Virus record (IMG/VR): IMGVR_UViG_3300045107_000843
Location: 1 to 33,247 of that record
Strand: one strand, 5' to 3'
DNA from: a virus
Length of the DNA: 33,247 bases
Shown: in pieces, positions 22,141 to 33,014 of the stretch
Layout: each line of letters starts with the position of its first letter
Numbering within the stretch: position 1 is the stretch's first letter
Position numbers and translations under genes: made by a program
The notes under the pieces: model-generated
The model's database searches: none
What the model saw: the letters and a program-made list of their open reading frames with translations, nothing else
What the model was told of the DNA's origin: nothing

Positions 22141-22845
22141 TTAGACGGGCGACATCTGCTTGGCAAGCCAGTCAGCGCCGCCGGCCGCGCTGTCCATCGC
22201 AGTGGTCTTCTGCTGGGCGGGCGGCGTGCGGCCGTGCAGGTAGCCGTTCAGGGTTGCCAGTTCCGCACCCTTGGCCGGCTTCAGCTCGAGCTTCTTGCAG
22301 GCGTACGTCGCCACCTCTTGCTCGGTGAGCATTTCCGCGTGGTCGAAGGCGCCGGTGAACTGCGAGACCTTGGCGGCCAGGCTCGTCTTCTTGACGATCT
22401 GCTCCTGCGCGCTGCGCACGCCGGCCGCCACCTTCGCGTCCACTTCCTTGGCGTCCATGGCGCCGGGGTTGCTCAGCACCGGGCCTTTGCCCTCATTGGT
22501 GCCGGAGGGGTCGTCGTCTTGCTTCTTGGGGGTGCCGTCGCCCGGGCCGGGGTCGGCATTGTCGGTGGCGACCTTCTTGCCTTCGAGCGCGTCCATACGC
22601 TGGCACAGGGCGTCCACGGTCTTGGTCAGGTTCGCCATCGGGTCGCCGTCATTGGCCCCCTCGGCGTTGGCGTCCGGGTCGTCGGCATTGGCGGCGGGAT
22701 CGCCCGCGCCCGGGTCGCCGCCGCCCTGGGCAGCCTTAAACGCGGCCACGGCCTTGACGAGTTCGTTCAACTGAGCGACGAGGGATTCCAGCGTCACGCC
22801 GGAAGAGCCGCCGCCCTGGGGCGCGTTGTTGCTGGGTTGGTCCAT
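22141..22845 (-). CDS. Nested scaffold protein (internal start inside the protease gene)
   Basis: An internal ATG at 22845 (codon 548 of the protease fusion) is preceded by GAGGA with 7-nt spacing, a better SD than that of the full gene. Translation gives 234 aa: MDQPSNNAPQGGGSSGVTLE, a coiled-coil-prone start, a long acidic Asp/Gly/Ala/Pro stretch, and a basic/helical C-terminus with ATYACKKLEL. This is the lambda C/Nu3 arrangement, in which the scaffold is both part of the protease polyprotein and made alone. Confidence 0.65.
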   Translation of the reverse strand: MDQPSNNAPQGGGSSGVTLESLVAQLNELVKAVAAFKAAQGGGDPGAGDPAANADDPDANAEGANDGDPMANLTKTVDALCQRMDALEGKKVATDNADPGPGDGTPKKQDDDPSGTNEGKGPVLSNPGAMDAKEVDAKVAAGVRSAQEQIVKKTSLAAKVSQFTGAFDHAEMLTEQEVATYACKKLELKPAKGAELATLNGYLHGRTPPAQQKTTAMDSAAGGADWLAKQMSPV

Positions 22846-24486
22846 GTCTTGATCCTCAGTGGATTGAAAGTTGGAATCACAGGTGAATACGAAGCGGTCA
22901 GCCTGGTCCTGCACTGCCACTTCCGGTCCCATCCGGCCCTCATCTACGAGGGCAAGGTGGTTGCCGCGAATTTCACGCTGGACGTAGTCATAAGGCTGAC
23001 CATTCCAGGTGCCGGGCGTCGCGTCGTAGCGGCAGCGATAGCCGCACGAAAGCTCGCGTTTGCCCTGTTCGATCCTGGTCTTCATCGCTTGGGAGAAGAC
23101 CCGCAGGTTGCCGTAGAGAACGCCGTCCTTGAAGTAGACGTTCTCGCCGATGACGCCTTGCACCCCCTTCTTTTCGGCAGGGGTGAGGCCTTCATCCTCG
23201 GCGCCGAGCATGGTGTGGTTGTCGATCCACGGGGAGAGCTTGAAGCTCTCGATCGCCTCGGCGCTGCTCAGCTCTTCCGCCGGCCGGTAGACGCGGTACA
23301 TGGCCTGCGGGTCCGGCGCGTCCGGGATCTGGTTGCCGCGGTACTCGAAAATCCCGACCTTGGAAATCGGGTTGTTCTCGACGGTCATGTAACCGTTGAG
23401 GTCGATATCGCGCTTGTCTTCCGCTACCGCAGAATCCTTGGAAGGGGGTATACTTTGCTCTGCCCCCTTCGCAGGCTGGTTCTTCTCCTCCCCGGAAACG
23501 GGTTGGGCCCCAGGCACACCGGTTGGGGGCTTTGCTTTTGCGGATGACACGATGAAGTGGTCGTAGTGCTCGTGTCCGTCGCGCTTCTCGTGCGTGACGA
23601 TTCCCACCTCGAAATCCTCGCCGCCCATCGAAACTTTGGCCGTGTACTTGTGCGCGGCCTTGATGTGTGCGCGCGCCAGGCGGTCCGGAACCGAACCGCT
23701 GTAGGACGCCTTCTCCAGCATCTGGGGCAGCGCAGCAATCAGCTTGATTTCTGGCGGATTGGCGCCGTTCAGGGAATGCTTCAGGCCCTGGCGCGTCACC
23801 TTGATGTCGTGGCCCGAGTTCGAGTTCTTGAACGACTTGCCGGCGATATGCTCCTCGGCATACTTCATCGCGGCCTTGCGCAGTTCCTTCGTGTCGCTGT
23901 GCTCGCCTACTTCCTTCCCCGTAAGGCTGGCGTGGGCCTCGCCACCGCCTTCACCGAACTGGCCGTTGGCTGCTCGCGGATGCTTCGACTCATCGAAGTC
24001 GGCGTCCATGCCGAAGTTGCGCGGGTTGGCCGCGAGGATCTGCTCCGCAACGCCAGGGTGCAGCGGCGAGGGCAGGGCGCTCGGCCGGCACCACTGCCAG
24101 GCCAGGCTCTCGTCGTTCAGGATCGGCTCGAAGGCCTCGGTCTCGCACACGAACAGCGCGAAGCCGTTCTCGGTGAGCACCGGCACCAGGTCCTCGGGGA
24201 AGTGCGCAATTTCCTCGTAGCTTTCGCGCATTGCCGCGACGGCGGGTTCTTCGCCGGGCTCGATGTGCCCTGCCGGGAAAGACCAGTGGCCGGGATAGGC
24301 ATTGGTGTCGTGGCCGCGCTGGATAAGCAGCACTTCCGGCCCGGCAAAGTAGGCGATGCCGGCGGCCACCGCGGCGCTCGCCTCGACCGCAGGTTCCGCG
24401 CGATCGAACGCAATGCCCATGCGCGACCAGGCGGACAACAGGCGACCGGCCTGCTCAGCCTTGCGGTGCGTACGGGCGCGAGCCAT
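22141..24486 (-). CDS. NUDIX-LPD3-prohead protease-scaffold fusion
   Basis: The 781-aa protein has at least four parts. Residues about 38-165 are a NUDIX hydrolase with box GHIEPGE...RESYEEI (G73, E79, R87, E88, E91, E92). Residues about 237-313 resemble the LPD3 polyvalent-protein domain (LKHSLNGANPPEIKLIAALP, then HYDHFIV). Residues about 358-530 are a DUF2213 prohead protease (RDIDLNGYMTVENNPISKVG; candidate catalytic residues S480 in ELSCGYRC and H510 in GNHLALVDEGR). Residues 548-781 are scaffold-like. Packing a nucleotide-pyrophosphatase-type domain onto a maturation protease is unusual; the NUDIX substrate is unknown. It follows a small disordered protein with little intergenic space. 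Confidence 0.87.
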   Translation of the reverse strand: MARARTHRKAEQAGRLLSAWSRMGIAFDRAEPAVEASAAVAAGIAYFAGPEVLLIQRGHDTNAYPGHWSFPAGHIEPGEEPAVAAMRESYEEIAHFPEDLVPVLTENGFALFVCETEAFEPILNDESLAWQWCRPSALPSPLHPGVAEQILAANPRNFGMDADFDESKHPRAANGQFGEGGGEAHASLTGKEVGEHSDTKELRKAAMKYAEEHIAGKSFKNSNSGHDIKVTRQGLKHSLNGANPPEIKLIAALPQMLEKASYSGSVPDRLARAHIKAAHKYTAKVSMGGEDFEVGIVTHEKRDGHEHYDHFIVSSAKAKPPTGVPGAQPVSGEEKNQPAKGAEQSIPPSKDSAVAEDKRDIDLNGYMTVENNPISKVGIFEYRGNQIPDAPDPQAMYRVYRPAEELSSAEAIESFKLSPWIDNHTMLGAEDEGLTPAEKKGVQGVIGENVYFKDGVLYGNLRVFSQAMKTRIEQGKRELSCGYRCRYDATPGTWNGQPYDYVQREIRGNHLALVDEGRMGPEVAVQDQADRFVFTCDSNFQSTEDQDMDQPSNNAPQGGGSSGVTLESLVAQLNELVKAVAAFKAAQGGGDPGAGDPAANADDPDANAEGANDGDPMANLTKTVDALCQRMDALEGKKVATDNADPGPGDGTPKKQDDDPSGTNEGKGPVLSNPGAMDAKEVDAKVAAGVRSAQEQIVKKTSLAAKVSQFTGAFDHAEMLTEQEVATYACKKLELKPAKGAELATLNGYLHGRTPPAQQKTTAMDSAAGGADWLAKQMSPV

Positions 24487-27187: not shown

Positions 27188-28582
27188 TTACACCCTCTGA
27201 AAAATCGAGTTCTTCCGGTTCAAGTGCATTTCATAGGCACCCGCACTGGCGTCGGCGTCATCGTCGTGCGCCGCTTCGGGGAAGCCTTCAAGGCAGGCGA
27301 AGTAGGCATCGTTCCAAAGCCCGCGCACGACCTTCACGTTCCCGGCCTTTGCCTGCGAGCTAAAAGGCCCGAAGCGGGTGACCTTGTCTCCGGTCTCGCG
27401 CTCGTAGCCGACGGAGAAGCCGGCGAGCTGCTTGACCATGTAGTTGGCTTGCGCCTTGCCGGCCTGGCCAGGGTCTTGCGGAAGGCCGACGCGGCAGGTG
27501 CGCCCGTCAGCTTTGGCGGTGTTCTTGATCGCTGTTTCCACGTCGCCAGGCCCGGATTGCATGCGCTCGACGTGCGCGATCACGATGATCTTGGTTTCGC
27601 GGCTGTAGCCCATCTTGAGGCCCACAGTCCAGTCGGGATCGTTGTCTTCGTTCTTCTCGGTGGCGGCCAGGTCCCAATACCGCACCCACTTCAGGTCGGC
27701 GGGCACCTCGTCCGGCTCGATCACTTCGACCCAGGCGCGCTTGAAGTACATGCCGCTGGCCGGGCGAATTTTCCAGTTGCCACCGAGCAGGCGCTTCTGT
27801 TCGACCTCCGGCAACGCAAGCAGGTTGGCCTTGTAGCCCGGATCCGCTTTCATCAGCGCCGGGTTGTCCGTGAGCTTGCCGGGGATGAACGTTACCGACT
27901 TCGGCTGAGGCTGCTCATCATGGTCAGGCGGCAGTTCCTCGTTGCCGTATTTCTCGACAAGCTCTTCCCGCGAGTCGCCCCAGATGATGGCGTCGCCGCG
28001 GCGGATGAACCAGCGCAGCACGCCGGCGCGCTCGGGGATCGGGAAGCCAGTGTCCTGGTCGATCCACCAGGCGATGAACTCGGCTACCCAGCTGTCCGCG
28101 TCCGGGTTGCAGGTGGCGCGCACATACGGGCGGACCCCGCACATCGTGCGGTTCCGCGACAGCATGTAGAAGAACTGGTACTTCGTGAAGTGCGTCAGCT
28201 CATCGAAGCCGATGAGCGGGACCGCGCTGCCCTGCCAATCGAGCACGGTGTGCTCGTGCTGCAGGTGCTTGAAGCTGACCGTCGCGCCGCTGGGGAAAAG
28301 GAACTGCGAGTCCCCGACCTTCGGCTGCGCGCCGAGGAGCGGATACAGCCGGCTCGCCTCATCCCAGAGGCCGCCCTCGTTGAAGATCTGTGGCGAGGTG
28401 CGGCGGAAGATGACGGCGCCGAATTCGCCGTTGCCGACGTGCCGCAGCGGCTCGGCCAGCAGGCCGAAGGTCTTGCCGCATCCCGCGGCGCCGCCGGCAA
28501 TGACGATGTCAGCCGGCGATGAAAGCCAATTCTCCTGGAAGCCCGGCTGCGGTCTAATTTCCCTGGTTGGGGTCTCGGCCAT
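27188..28582 (-). CDS. terL: Terminase large subunit
   Basis: The 464-aa packaging motor has an ATPase domain with Walker A GGAAGCGKT (residues 30-38), Walker B VPLIGFDE (121-128, D127/E128) and the coupling motif RATCNP (155-160). The C-terminal RNase H-fold nuclease domain has candidate metal ligands D304 (RYWDLAATEK), D370 (LPQDPG) and the acidic HDDDADASAGAY near residue 440. The start overlaps the small subunit gene by 29 bases. It cuts and pumps DNA into proheads together with the portal. Confidence 0.95.
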   Translation of the reverse strand: MAETPTREIRPQPGFQENWLSSPADIVIAGGAAGCGKTFGLLAEPLRHVGNGEFGAVIFRRTSPQIFNEGGLWDEASRLYPLLGAQPKVGDSQFLFPSGATVSFKHLQHEHTVLDWQGSAVPLIGFDELTHFTKYQFFYMLSRNRTMCGVRPYVRATCNPDADSWVAEFIAWWIDQDTGFPIPERAGVLRWFIRRGDAIIWGDSREELVEKYGNEELPPDHDEQPQPKSVTFIPGKLTDNPALMKADPGYKANLLALPEVEQKRLLGGNWKIRPASGMYFKRAWVEVIEPDEVPADLKWVRYWDLAATEKNEDNDPDWTVGLKMGYSRETKIIVIAHVERMQSGPGDVETAIKNTAKADGRTCRVGLPQDPGQAGKAQANYMVKQLAGFSVGYERETGDKVTRFGPFSSQAKAGNVKVVRGLWNDAYFACLEGFPEAAHDDDADASAGAYEMHLNRKNSIFQRV

Positions 28583-29261
28583 TGCTGGGCAGGTAGATCA
28601 TGACCGGTGGCGGCGCTGCCGGGAGCGGCTTACCGTCGGCACCGGTGTGCTCGTGCTTGTGCTTCTCGGTGTTCATGCCGAGGTGCTTGGCCACCATCTC
28701 CCAGGCCTTGTCCTGGGAGTTCATCTTGACCTCGATGCCGTCTTTCGTGACCTTCACGCCTGCGTACAGGGCGCGGGCGCCGGGCGACAGGTAGCGCGTG
28801 TCCTTGAAGAAGGGCGTTCCCACGCCTTCGCCGTGGCACTCCGGGCACTTGGGGTGCGGGTCGCGCGTGCCATCGTAGCCAAGCTCGGCCGTGATCGGCT
28901 CGTCGGGGTTCTCGCGCTGGCGCGCCGCGAGTTCGCCGGCGGTGAGTTGGTAGGCGAAGCCCTTGCCCCAGCAACAGCGGCAGCAGGTGCGCCGGAACTC
29001 CACCAGCTCGTTCGGATCGGCCGTGGCCATGGCGAGCCACTGGCGCAGCACGGTGTCGGCGTTGACCAGCGTGCGCGCAGACCGCGCGTCCATTGCCGCC
29101 TTGATCGCGTTGCAGATGACCTGGTCATCGAGCATGCGCGTGGCCTGCCTGCGCGCCGCGCTCTCGCTGTAGCCGGCGCGGATAGCCGCCTGGGTGCCAT
29201 TCAGGTCCACCAGGAATTCCTCGACAAAGCGCTTCTGGCGAGGATTAAGGGATGCGGACAT
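28554..29261 (-). CDS. terS: Terminase small subunit
   Basis: The 235-aa protein begins with the Terminase_2/XtmA motif LNPRQKRFVEEFLVDLNGTQ and AAIRAGYSESAARRQATRML, a DNA-binding helix-turn-helix. A middle Cys cluster (C93, C94, C96, C97 and C139, C142 in HPKCPECHGEG) suggests a zinc ribbon inserted after the HTH. GGAGG lies six bases upstream of the ATG. It recognises the packaging site for the large subunit, and follows the non-coding RNA-like region. Confidence 0.9.
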   Translation of the reverse strand: MSASLNPRQKRFVEEFLVDLNGTQAAIRAGYSESAARRQATRMLDDQVICNAIKAAMDARSARTLVNADTVLRQWLAMATADPNELVEFRRTCCRCCWGKGFAYQLTAGELAARQRENPDEPITAELGYDGTRDPHPKCPECHGEGVGTPFFKDTRYLSPGARALYAGVKVTKDGIEVKMNSQDKAWEMVAKHLGMNTEKHKHEHTGADGKPLPAAPPPVMIYLPSNGRDPNQGN

Positions 29262-29330: not shown

Positions 29331-29366
29331 AATCCACCAAAGGAGGAGGGTGGAGGAGACAAACTG

Positions 29367-29920
29367 GAGTGGTGATGCCCACTCAGTAGCCGGCGCGGCA
29401 GAACCGCGTGGCTACCGGCTGGACACCGCACAGGCAACGCGTCCGACACCCTTTCGGAAAGGGACTAGGGGGTGCGACTTACGCCGTTAGCGGGGCAACT
29501 ACCCCTGCAAGGTACGAGGGCTGGCTACTCGCTGCGTCGCGGGCCCGTTGCGCCCCGGGAACCTCGCGACATCCGCTTTCACCAACAAGGAAGAAGCCGT
29601 TATCGTTGACGCTACCGTGCGTGGGGGCCTAGGGGATTAACCCGGGGCCTCGCGAGCCACCTTCACCGCGCGTGTCTCTGTCCGCCGCCGCTCACCCCTG
29701 ACAAGGCTTGCATTGGCACGGCACTGTCAGATGCCGCCAGCTTCTTGCTTGTTGGTGCCGTTTACGTTTCCGGCGCCTCAGCCCCTTTTGGGGAGGCCGC
29801 CCTTGCGCCCTCGCGGGCCATAAACCTGAACCCGGTTGCCCATCCGGGGTTCCGCACCGGGCATCCCCAGGGGAAACGGCTTAAGCACATTTGCCTCAGT
29901 TGGCGTAGTGGTTCCGTGCC
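29367..29920 (-). ncRNA. Candidate large structured non-coding RNA (ornate, tRNA-adjacent)
   Basis: The stretch between the tRNA and terminase (29262-29931) has no convincing gene on either strand but is densely structured. On the minus strand an 18-nt long-range helix joins 29757-29740 to 29597-29580 with 17 of 18 matches. GGCACGG (29920-29914) matches CCGTGCC (29721-29715), and GCCGTTT (29880-29874) matches AAACGGC (29763-29757). Local hairpins include GAACCCCGG/CCGGGTTC (29852-29828), GCCC-GCGA-GGGC with a GNRA loop (29818-29807), a bulged stem at 29797-29775, GTCGCG/CGCGAC (29570-29536), CCCTTT/AAAGGG (29463-29449), GTAGCC-CGCGG/CCGCG-GGCTAC (29415-29386) and GAGTGG/CCACTC (29384-29367). 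Location next to a phage tRNA recalls GOLLD and ROOL RNAs, but no sequence match to either is claimed. Ends are approximate. Confidence 0.6.
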
Positions 29921-29931
29921 TTGCTGCTGTG

Positions 29932-30007
29932 TGGTTGCGGGAGAACGATTCGAACGTCCGACAGCAGGGTTATGAGCCCCGCGCTCTACCGACTGAGCTA
30001 TCCCGCC
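29932..30007 (-). tRNA. tRNA-Met(CAU), hybrid initiator/elongator features
   Basis: A complete 76-nt cloverleaf including encoded CCA: acceptor GGCGGGA, D-arm GCTC-AGTCGGTA-GAGC, anticodon arm CGGGG-CTCATAA-CCCTG, variable loop CTGTC, T-arm GGACG-TTCGAAT-CGTTC, 3' TCCCGCAACCA. Anticodon CAU allows Met (initiator or elongator) or, if lysidine-modified, Ile2. The 1:72 position is a G-A mismatch, and three consecutive G-C pairs (29-31:39-41) close the anticodon loop; both are initiator-type features. The 11:24 pair is C:G, which is elongator-type. It lies on the late transcript after the promoter and terminator. Confidence 0.93.
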
Positions 30008-30111
30008 TTGATCTGATCTACATGGCGCGCCTACAAGGTTGACCATCGAGAGACTAGGCCTCGACGATACCTGCTAAGTTCGACGTGTCAAGCACTAGCG
30101 CAAATCGAAAA

Positions 30112-30144
30112 CAAAAAGCCCGCGCGGTTTGCACCGGGCGGGCT
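30112..30144 (-). terminator. Terminator (tR'-like) downstream of the late promoter
   Basis: A 7-bp stem, AGCCCGC (30117-30123) with GCGGGCT (30138-30144), is followed on minus by TTTTTG. Its end lies about 60 nt after the predicted transcription start, so it would make a short leader RNA unless polymerase is terminator-resistant. Confidence 0.78.
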
Positions 30145-30178
30145 CTGGTCGGATTTTTAGCTATGCCAACTAAGACGC

Positions 30179-30207
30179 TATATACGCCACGGTTTGGCGG
30201 GTGTCAA
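30179..30207 (-). promoter_or_regulatory. Strong sigma70 promoter (pR'-like late promoter)
   Basis: On the minus strand, -35 TTGACA (30207-30202) and -10 TATATA (30184-30179) are separated by exactly 17 bp, near consensus. The spacer contains an inverted repeat, CGCCA-N5-TGGCG, a possible protein-binding element. The promoter lies just after the stop of the Q-like gene and would start transcription near 30172. Confidence 0.78.
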
Positions 30208-32097: not shown

Positions 32098-32571
32098 CTA
32101 TGCGGGCGCGCCCGGCTCCAGCGTGCAAAGCCACTTCGCGAAGGTGGCGTTCGACAGCGCCTCCGCGCAGCGTTTCTCCCGGATGTGGGCGATGGCCGTG
32201 CTCGGATACCAGCCGTCCCGGATCAGCGCCAGTGCGACGATCAGGCCCGAACGGTTCCAGCCGGCTTCGCAGTGCACCAGCGTGGGCCCGAGCTTCCGGC
32301 AGGCACGCACCTGGTCCGCGATCATCACCAGCCGGTCCACCGGCGGCAGCGACGGGCCGTCCATGAACGGGTAGATGGTGATGTGCTGGCCCGCGCGCGG
32401 CGCGTGGTGGGGCTTTCCATACAGGTCGAACACGAATTCAAAGCGCCGGTGCCCCTCGGCCGCGTCGTACCCTGGCCAGCCGCCCTGCCAGAGGTCGCCA
32501 TCGATCAGCGAATAGTGGCCGGTCGGGCGCAGCCAGTCGCTGCTGTTCAGAGTCGTGCCGTTGGTGATCAC
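32098..32571 (-). CDS. Dual-specificity protein phosphatase
   Basis: The protein tyrosine/dual-specificity phosphatase active site HCEAGWNRSG (HCx5R) is complete: Cys101 and Arg107 from the GTG start, with Asp in IYPFMDG as candidate general acid. The likely start is GTG at 32571, which overlaps the upstream TGA (GTGA) and has GATGGGGG before it; an ATG at 32598 would give nine more residues (166 aa total). It may remove phosphates from host or phage proteins during takeover; the target is unknown. Confidence 0.85.
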   Translation of the reverse strand: MITNGTTLNSSDWLRPTGHYSLIDGDLWQGGWPGYDAAEGHRRFEFVFDLYGKPHHAPRAGQHITIYPFMDGPSLPPVDRLVMIADQVRACRKLGPTLVHCEAGWNRSGLIVALALIRDGWYPSTAIAHIREKRCAEALSNATFAKWLCTLEPGAPA

Positions 32572-33014
32572 GCTACCCCCATCAGTTGCTTCAGCCATTG
32601 AATGCCGCGCTCATCGCGCACGGCCGCTCCGTCCACCTCGATCACGCGCCAGCCCGCCAGCAGCGACAGGGCGCGCTTCTCGATATCGGCGGCGGCGCGC
32701 GCTTTCACCCGGTGCGCTCCGCCCTGCACCTCCACGCCAATGCGCAGCGCCGGCCATGCGAAGTCCAGGCGGAAGTCCCGGCCGGTGATGTGGAAGTACT
32801 CGGTCACCGGCGCCGGCAGGCCGTGGGCGGCGATCTGCTGCTCGAAGCGCACTTCAAGCTGGCTGCGCTCGCGCGGCGGCTTGATATCGGCCTGCACCTC
32901 GGCGCGGCCGGGCGACTGCCGGCGGTCGGCAGGTTGCTCCCCGGCAATGCCGCGCACGCCGCCGGCGGCCACGCGCTCGGCCACCATTTCGCGCGTCCAC
33001 CGCACCTCGCTCAT
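32568..33014 (-). CDS. PD-(D/E)XK endonuclease-like protein (DUF559/Vsr-like)
   Basis: The 148-aa protein has the nuclease core FRLDFAWPALRIGVEVQGG (D84, E95, Q97) and later DIEKRALSLLAGWRVIEVDG, matching the DUF559/Vsr superfamily. The usual Lys of ExK is Gln here (EVQ). Such proteins may be nicking enzymes or resolvase-like. It starts by ATGA overlap with the FtsK-gamma gene. Confidence 0.82.
   Translation of the reverse strand: MSEVRWTREMVAERVAAGGVRGIAGEQPADRRQSPGRAEVQADIKPPRERSQLEVRFEQQIAAHGLPAPVTEYFHITGRDFRLDFAWPALRIGVEVQGGAHRVKARAAADIEKRALSLLAGWRVIEVDGAAVRDERGIQWLKQLMGVA

Follow-up and report, generated by a model that had tools for sequence, protein, structure and literature searches.

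Among the closest described counterparts of the tRNA considered here are the bacterial initiator tRNA-fMet, the bacterial elongator tRNA-Met and a laboratory conversion of the latter into the former, which Varshney, Lee and RajBhandary reportedly achieved in 1993 with an engineered C1-A72. The acceptor pair G4:C69 is linked to formylation. According to the available portions of two sources (PMC7949028, PMC11231383), formylation is driven by the 1:72 mismatch, assisted by G2:C71, C3:G70 and A11:U24, the three consecutive G-C pairs of the anticodon stem (3GC) serve the ribosomal P site, and moving the mismatch together with 3GC into elongator tRNA-Met leads to initiation in E. coli. For phage tRNAs, the usual views of function are codon supply or escape from tRNA-cutting defences (PMC10264068, part available), and tRNA-fMet itself is treated, in the available text of PMC10264068 and PMC12482277, only as a target of VapC or as absent from one phage. 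We found no description of phage tRNAs(CAU) as mixed-identity initiators in a literature search that covered titles and abstract openings, with subscription journals little represented. The phiLM21-like prophages encode 10 tRNA-Met(CAU) and four tRNA-fMet(CAU) as single tRNA genes, for which the available part of PMC12429752 proposes no role in initiation; that both labels are in use for closely related prophages of a single family agrees with a mixed identity.

The DNA analyzed here (the window) is an IMG/VR virus record of 33,247 bases, of the linear class, whose gene content is that of a contractile-tailed phage, including terminase, portal, head, sheath and tape-measure genes on the minus strand (Pfam and PHROG scans). 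The same strand also encodes a large protein (22141-24486) that matches NUDIX hydrolase in its first part and head maturation protease in its second, and a dual-specificity phosphatase domain is encoded by a further phage gene there (32098-32598; Pfam PF00782). The sole tRNA gene of the window is called tRNA-Met(CAT) by ARAGORN and scores 58.5 bits against Rfam RF00005 (cut-off 29), in agreement with the initial annotation, which had left the strand unstated (Table 1). With position 1 at base 30007 and A72 at 29936, and read 5' to 3' on the minus strand, the tRNA has an unpaired G-A at 1:72, followed by G2:C71, C3:G70, G4:C69 and G5:C68 in the acceptor stem; 3GC (G29:C41, G30:C40 and G31:C39) beneath the anticodon loop CUCAUAA, the whole 29-41 stretch (GGGCTCATAACCC) being identical to that of the initiator; the 3' end CCCGCAACCA; and C:G at 11:24 of the D stem, where A11:U24 is absent. 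The features from which a mixed initiator/elongator identity had first been proposed (the G-A mismatch, the three G-C pairs with the CAU loop, the initiator-like 3' end and the elongator-like C11:G24) are all present in the sequence.

Table 1. Features around the tRNA gene of the window, in the order in which they lie along the minus strand.
Feature	Position	Strand	Basis and remarks
AlpA/Q-like transcription antiterminator gene (predicted), 221 aa	30218..30883	minus	Directly upstream of the tRNA; AlphaFold with Foldseek and VIA
Promoter-like site, TTGACA-17-TATATA	30179..30207	minus	Just after the antiterminator gene; script scan, 10/12 matches; absent from a stricter scan
Intrinsic-terminator-like hairpin and T-run	30108..30146	minus	Between promoter and tRNA; ViennaRNA -22 to -23 kcal/mol, then TTTTTGTTTT
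Second promoter-like site, TTGACA-16-TATCGT	30064..30091	minus	Just upstream of the tRNA; 10/12 matches; 1 found vs 0.2 expected
tRNA(CAU), encoded CCA, 76 nt	29932..30007	minus	ARAGORN, Rfam, sequence
Terminase small subunit (terS)	28554..29261	minus	First clear late gene after the tRNA; Pfam Terminase_2, E 5e-32; phrog_51
Terminase large subunit (terL)	27188..28582	minus	Pfam Terminase_6N; phrog_979, E 3e-164

Identity was scored with position models of 62 distinct bacterial tRNAs(CAU) (21 initiator, 22 elongator Met and 19 Ile2-like) from genomes of Pseudomonadota, the phylum of the Mesorhizobium record L023; leave-one-out assignment was correct for 61 of the 62, with the initiator set having been picked by A11:U24 plus A72 and the other two by C11:G24, features that are consequently fixed by design. 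Over its whole length, the window tRNA scored best as an elongator, 28.6 bits above initiator. By region, elongator led by 24.5 bits in the D arm, by 8.9 bits in the anticodon arm and by 2.5 bits in the T arm plus variable loop, and initiator led by 7.4 bits in the acceptor. Judged by its sequence, the window tRNA combines the body of an elongator tRNA-Met with an acceptor end like that of an initiator and with the three G-C pairs of the initiator anticodon stem. With the bacterial initiator it shares the unpaired 1:72 with A72, G2:C71, C3:G70, 3GC, the CAU anticodon and the 3' end; it differs in its C11:G24, its elongator D arm and whole score, and its G1, since C1 (as C1-A72) was found in 21/21 bacterial initiators, a base that was not fixed by their selection. 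With the bacterial elongator (GGCGGR..CGCUACCA type) it shares the D arm, the whole-molecule score and a G50-U64 wobble, but 1:72 is paired in all 22 elongators sampled (G-U or G-C) and 3GC occurs in none. The pair is the weak G1-U72 in 16 of these 22, which indicates that weak 1:72 pairing alone is tolerated in elongation. Position 50:64 was also considered as a second initiator trait and rejected: it is non-Watson-Crick in 19/44 mismatched phage tRNAs (among the matches listed) and in 15/22 bacterial elongators, and a wobble so common in the latter does not discriminate. The laboratory conversion resembles the window tRNA in combining a 1:72 mismatch and 3GC in an elongator tRNA-Met body, except that the window tRNA is natural, phage-borne and has G1-A72 instead of C1-A72.

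A scan of viral contigs with the frame TAGCTCAG..TAGAGC (containing C11:G24), a CAU anticodon and a 3' CAACCA returned at least 119 stretches, and the 74 distinct phage CAU tRNAs among the matches listed had C-A (22), A-A (16), G-A (13) or U-A (23) at 1:72. In a control scan with the anticodon left open (at least 120 stretches, 58 of them in new loci), the 47 well-formed distinct non-CAU tRNAs among the matches listed had U-A in 46 cases and C-A in one. After removal of the window tRNA and three tRNAs with fewer than five of the six other acceptor pairs from the CAU set (74 to 70), and of one tRNA, a G-A, from the non-CAU set by the same filter (48 to 47), 1:72 was unpaired in 49/70 distinct CAU tRNAs vs. 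1/47 with other anticodons (Fisher p 5e-15, among the matches listed). The contrast held for clusters at 85% (15/31 vs. 1/33, p 2e-5, among the matches listed) and was not significant at 80% (2/14 vs. 1/27, p 0.26, among the matches listed), a level at which most CAU tRNAs fall together in a single cluster and significance is lost. Trees were built without positions 1 and 72, A72 being constant through the choice of pattern. Among the matches listed, the CAU tree had 29 changes at position 1, then 1, 5, 5 and 4 at positions 2-5, and 18 and 13 at positions 6-7; the non-CAU tree, again among the matches listed, had a single change at position 1 and about 13 at each of positions 3-7, which the partner positions mirrored. 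A variable position 1 next to guarded pairs 2-4 is the pattern that recognition by the formylase would produce. G2:C71, C3:G70 and G4:C69 occur jointly in 46/50 mismatched and 7/16 paired Met-like phage tRNAs, and in 0/29 Ile2-like and 0/47 non-CAU tRNAs (both comparisons among the matches listed).

It is important to note that the mismatch is a minority form: when the 3'-end restriction was lifted (118 of at least 120 stretches used), 11 of the 112 distinct phage tRNAs(CAU) among the matches listed had A-A, C-A or G-A, one G-A of these being a misparsed sequence. Clear 1:72 mismatches in this unrestricted sample nearly all had A72, the initiator base (among the matches listed). On the bacterial side, the C11:G24 frame with A72 was found in 0/398 Pseudomonadota genomes (one phylum, that of the Mesorhizobium record), and the same frame with C, G or U72 in 91/100 genomes of that phylum. 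Hence, the body-plus-A72 form is not a host form within the Pseudomonadota sample, and many of the viral contigs may come from hosts elsewhere; a looser pattern gave 0/118 in Bacteroidota, the phylum of a Mucilaginibacter record (G004), a count that has no positive control and says little. That many phages carry such tRNAs and the sampled bacterial chromosomes do not suggests that phages may have evolved start tRNAs of their own.

The nearest relatives of the window tRNA are those of viral loci L059 and L120, which are identical to each other and keep G1-A72, 3GC and C11:G24, with 6:67, 7:66, 28:42 and T-stem pairs changed yet still paired; the tRNA of L115 also has all three traits. Pairing at 1:72 is therefore not restored in either of these homologues; restored pairing in homologues with no initiator traits was what the initial annotation had named as speaking against its reading. 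Recurrent in phages, specific to CAU, and kept in the nearest homologue with compensated stems, the mismatch is, by these sequence comparisons, more than chance. The full 3GC is rarer: leaving out 6 of the 50 mismatched tRNAs for poor T stems, it is present in 6/44 among the matches listed (the window, L059/L120, L115, L081, L127 and L139), compared to 0/22 bacterial Met-like tRNAs and 0/16 paired phage Met-like tRNAs among the matches listed. The other 38/44 mismatched phage tRNAs (among the matches listed) are without 3GC, and the class as a whole may therefore not consist of dedicated initiators. All six tRNAs with 3GC lie upstream of head or packaging genes, namely terS-terL (window and L120), terL (L115), terS (L081 and L127) and a major head gene (L139), genes that were looked up individually and do not constitute a blind count. 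The first open reading frames after 43 tRNAs of the mismatched class (120 in total) include terminase, portal and head-tail families (PHROG, Pfam), whereas no such families were among the 25 commonest at 36 control loci (104 open reading frames), a comparison of families and not a per-locus count. At the same time, the close relatives of terS (L002-L005) and of the antiterminator gene (L006-L008) have no tRNA, which makes the tRNA an accessory gene and not a fixed part of its neighborhood.

The initial annotation had placed the tRNA with the late genes, and its surroundings bear this out. The order in the window is antiterminator gene, first promoter-like site, hairpin with T-run, second promoter-like site, tRNA, terS and terL; the hairpin did not appear on the minus strand in a separate scan of the window. 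The product of the upstream gene had no Pfam or PHROG match, and a PDB sequence search with its family profile gave nothing useful. Its AlphaFold model (mean pLDDT 73.6, mostly helical, moderate confidence) had AlpA as its best Foldseek matches in the PDB (7xya/7xyb, E 3.1e-3 and 7.6e-3) and in VIA (Z 12.8 over 139 residues, rmsd 3.0, and 12.1), followed by lambda Q (7ubn, Z 7.0), with all other rows at or below 4.9. Thus, as modeled, the product has an AlpA fold, an assignment to be read with care for a helical model of moderate confidence. The gene at the equivalent place in L120 matches AlpA in sequence (E 1.1e-11) and shows no sequence link to that of the window (BLASTP E 0.19); that is, the likeness between the two antiterminators is through the AlpA fold in the former and AlpA sequence in the latter. 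AlpA of P. aeruginosa works from a promoter, taking RNA polymerase through the intrinsic terminators that lie downstream (PMC7969949, part available). The window appears to have this AlpA-type layout, and antitermination at its terminator is a prediction from the order of promoter and terminator. In L059/L120 the order is likewise promoter-like site, terminator (its T-run starting 13 nt before the tRNA) and tRNA, followed in L120, which reaches further, by an HNH gene and an unrelated terS-terL. No clear gene accompanies the window tRNA in its leader of about 950 nt. About 570 bases of this leader (29362-29931), also without a clear gene, separate the tRNA from a match to the Rfam 'Betaproteobacteria toxic small RNA' (RF02278; 29301-29361, minus strand, 52.4 bits, cut-off 50), which lies directly upstream of terS and has a terminator-like hairpin at its end; this match is a hint that the host may be a betaproteobacterium.

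A similar arrangement is found in rhizobial phages. The TerL of Rhizobium phage RHph_TM3_3_3 is a DNA-level relative of that of the window, and in this phage, in phiLM21 and in the Rhizobium prophages L029 and L032, a NusG-like antiterminator gene is followed by a G1-A72 tRNA with A11:U24 and then by the terminase genes. The phiLM21-like Sinorhizobium prophages and RHph_TM3_3_3 share with the window a single G1-A72 CAU tRNA between an antiterminator gene and terS-terL, but differ in the initiator body (A11:U24), an extra U2-C71, the lack of a full 3GC and the NusG-like type of the antiterminator. In 17/17 loci with an AlpA-like (4: the window, L059/L120 and L115) or NusG-like (13) gene upstream on the same strand, the tRNA was of the G1-A72 kind, a count that is inflated and not an unbiased rate, since the queries came from G1-A72 loci and ancestry is shared within each family. 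Of the TerL relatives from bacterial genomes, 16 had 4 kb or more of upstream sequence (L019 and L024 being too short), and a CAU tRNA lay upstream in four of these 16 (L017, L029, L031 and L032); that of L032 was missed by ARAGORN and found by Rfam, which was run on 8 of 18 loci, and the tRNA of L023 was not counted, as it lies 7 kb downstream of terL and has the form of a chromosomal initiator of the same genome.

Several variants were seen alongside these loci. Two open acceptor pairs, G1-A72 and U2-C71, characterize the tRNAs(CAU) of the rhizobial phages or prophages L259, L472, L029 and L032. Initiator-bodied tRNAs numbered 97 distinct in viral contigs among the matches listed; some are near contig ends and may be host attachment sites, and they were excluded from the CAU contrast. 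U2-C71 also occurs in 13 of these 97 (among the matches listed). The tRNA-Met of Pseudomonas phage PfAn1 (L260) has the anticodon loop CCCAUAC, with C33 instead of the usual U. Four viral contigs (L009, L011, L014 and L016) carry, in addition to a tRNA of the G1-A72 kind, a nearby tmRNA gene (tag GKADEWIFMGSVGG) and a tRNA-Ile.

Based on the 1:72 mismatch and 3GC in an elongator body, we favor, with moderate confidence, the hypothesis that the window tRNA is a phage initiator tRNA, a natural elongator-to-initiator conversion that would be expressed with the late operon. Under this hypothesis, an elongator tRNA-Met would have gained the unpaired G-A and the three G-C pairs under the anticodon loop; the AlpA/Q-like antiterminator from the upstream gene would let RNA polymerase read through the terminator, which would make the tRNA the earliest product of late transcription. 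It would be charged by the host with methionine; its open acceptor end, in which G2:C71 and C3:G70 are present, would be recognized by the host formylase; and IF2 would deliver it to the P site, where it would supplement or replace the host initiator pool during translation of the capsid and tail genes. All steps of this scheme, from charging and formylation to P-site use and late expression, are predictions from the sequence, as is a benefit to the phage. Against such a role stand the elongator score (by 28.6 bits), the missing A11:U24, G1 in place of C1 and the 38/44 of the class that are without 3GC, and the many mismatched phage tRNAs of this last group could be something else. In favor of selection for the role, two tRNA bodies and two types of antiterminator converge on G1-A72 before terminase genes. 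A broader and more tentative version is that phages evolved dedicated initiator tRNAs at least twice, from initiator-type (A11:U24) and elongator-type (C11:G24) bodies, and placed them first in antiterminator-controlled late operons, which would raise initiation capacity during virion protein synthesis. The further suggestion of the initial annotation, an influence on start-codon choice, found no support: the CAU anticodon is that of the host initiator, which leaves no sequence basis for an altered preference among AUG, GUG and UUG. The associated remark that several late genes start with GTG or TTG holds loosely, as the best starts of the 36 open reading frames of the window were ATG in 23, GTG in 11 and TTG in two, from a crude Shine-Dalgarno scan that has no background rate for comparison.

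Alternatively, the window tRNA might be an elongator or dual-use tRNA-Met that is charged, at most partly formylated and used mainly at internal AUG codons, the mismatch being tolerated or tuning EF-Tu binding. The whole-molecule score is that of an elongator, and many bacterial elongators have a weak G-U at 1:72; moreover, the E. coli initiator joins elongation when formylase is low, and human mitochondria use one G1-U72 tRNA-Met for both steps (PMC7949028, part available). We nonetheless regard this alternative as rather unlikely, given that the mismatch is CAU-specific with the formylase pairs kept (among the matches listed), that clear mismatches in the unrestricted sample nearly all have A72 (among the matches listed), and that the same locus in related phages holds initiator-bodied tRNAs. 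An intermediate situation is conceivable as well: slow formylation without A11:U24 could allow the window tRNA to serve both initiation and elongation. It is also possible, but improbable, that the tRNA is an insurance or resistant copy that sustains initiation during infection when host nucleases of the VapC type destroy tRNA-fMet; the hybrid body may be harder to recognize, but the initiator-identical stretch at 29-41 leaves the usual cleavage region unaltered.

A non-translational role, as an element of late-transcript processing or of the leader, as an attachment-site copy or as a restored host tRNA gene (tRNA-dependent lysogeny), seems very improbable to us. Such a role would suit a lone tRNA in a leader devoid of clear genes, and phage tRNAs can replace host tRNA genes upon lysogeny (cited in PMC12429752, part available). 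However, the cloverleaf is full and intact, with stems that are compensated in the homologue; the absence of body-plus-A72 from the 398 Pseudomonadota genomes indicates that no common host gene was copied to produce it; and the tRNA encoded by phiLM21-like prophages differs from the tRNA at their integration site (PMC12429752, part available). Finally, a tRNA-Ile2 with C34 changed to lysidine, the competing identity named in the initial annotation, is contradicted, in spite of the CAU anticodon and A73, by a score 33.5 bits below Met (24.5 of these from the acceptor stem) and by G-C pairs at 4:69 and 5:68 in place of the TilS determinants C4:G69 and C5:G68, and we give it almost no weight.

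If the window tRNA is indeed a phage tRNA built to start proteins, it would add a third use, control of initiation, to codon supply and escape from tRNA-cutting defences. The classic tRNA engineering experiment would moreover have its counterpart in nature, and the tRNA, with G1-A72 for C1-A72 and no A11:U24, would be a convenient means of testing which features of an initiator are truly needed outside E. coli.
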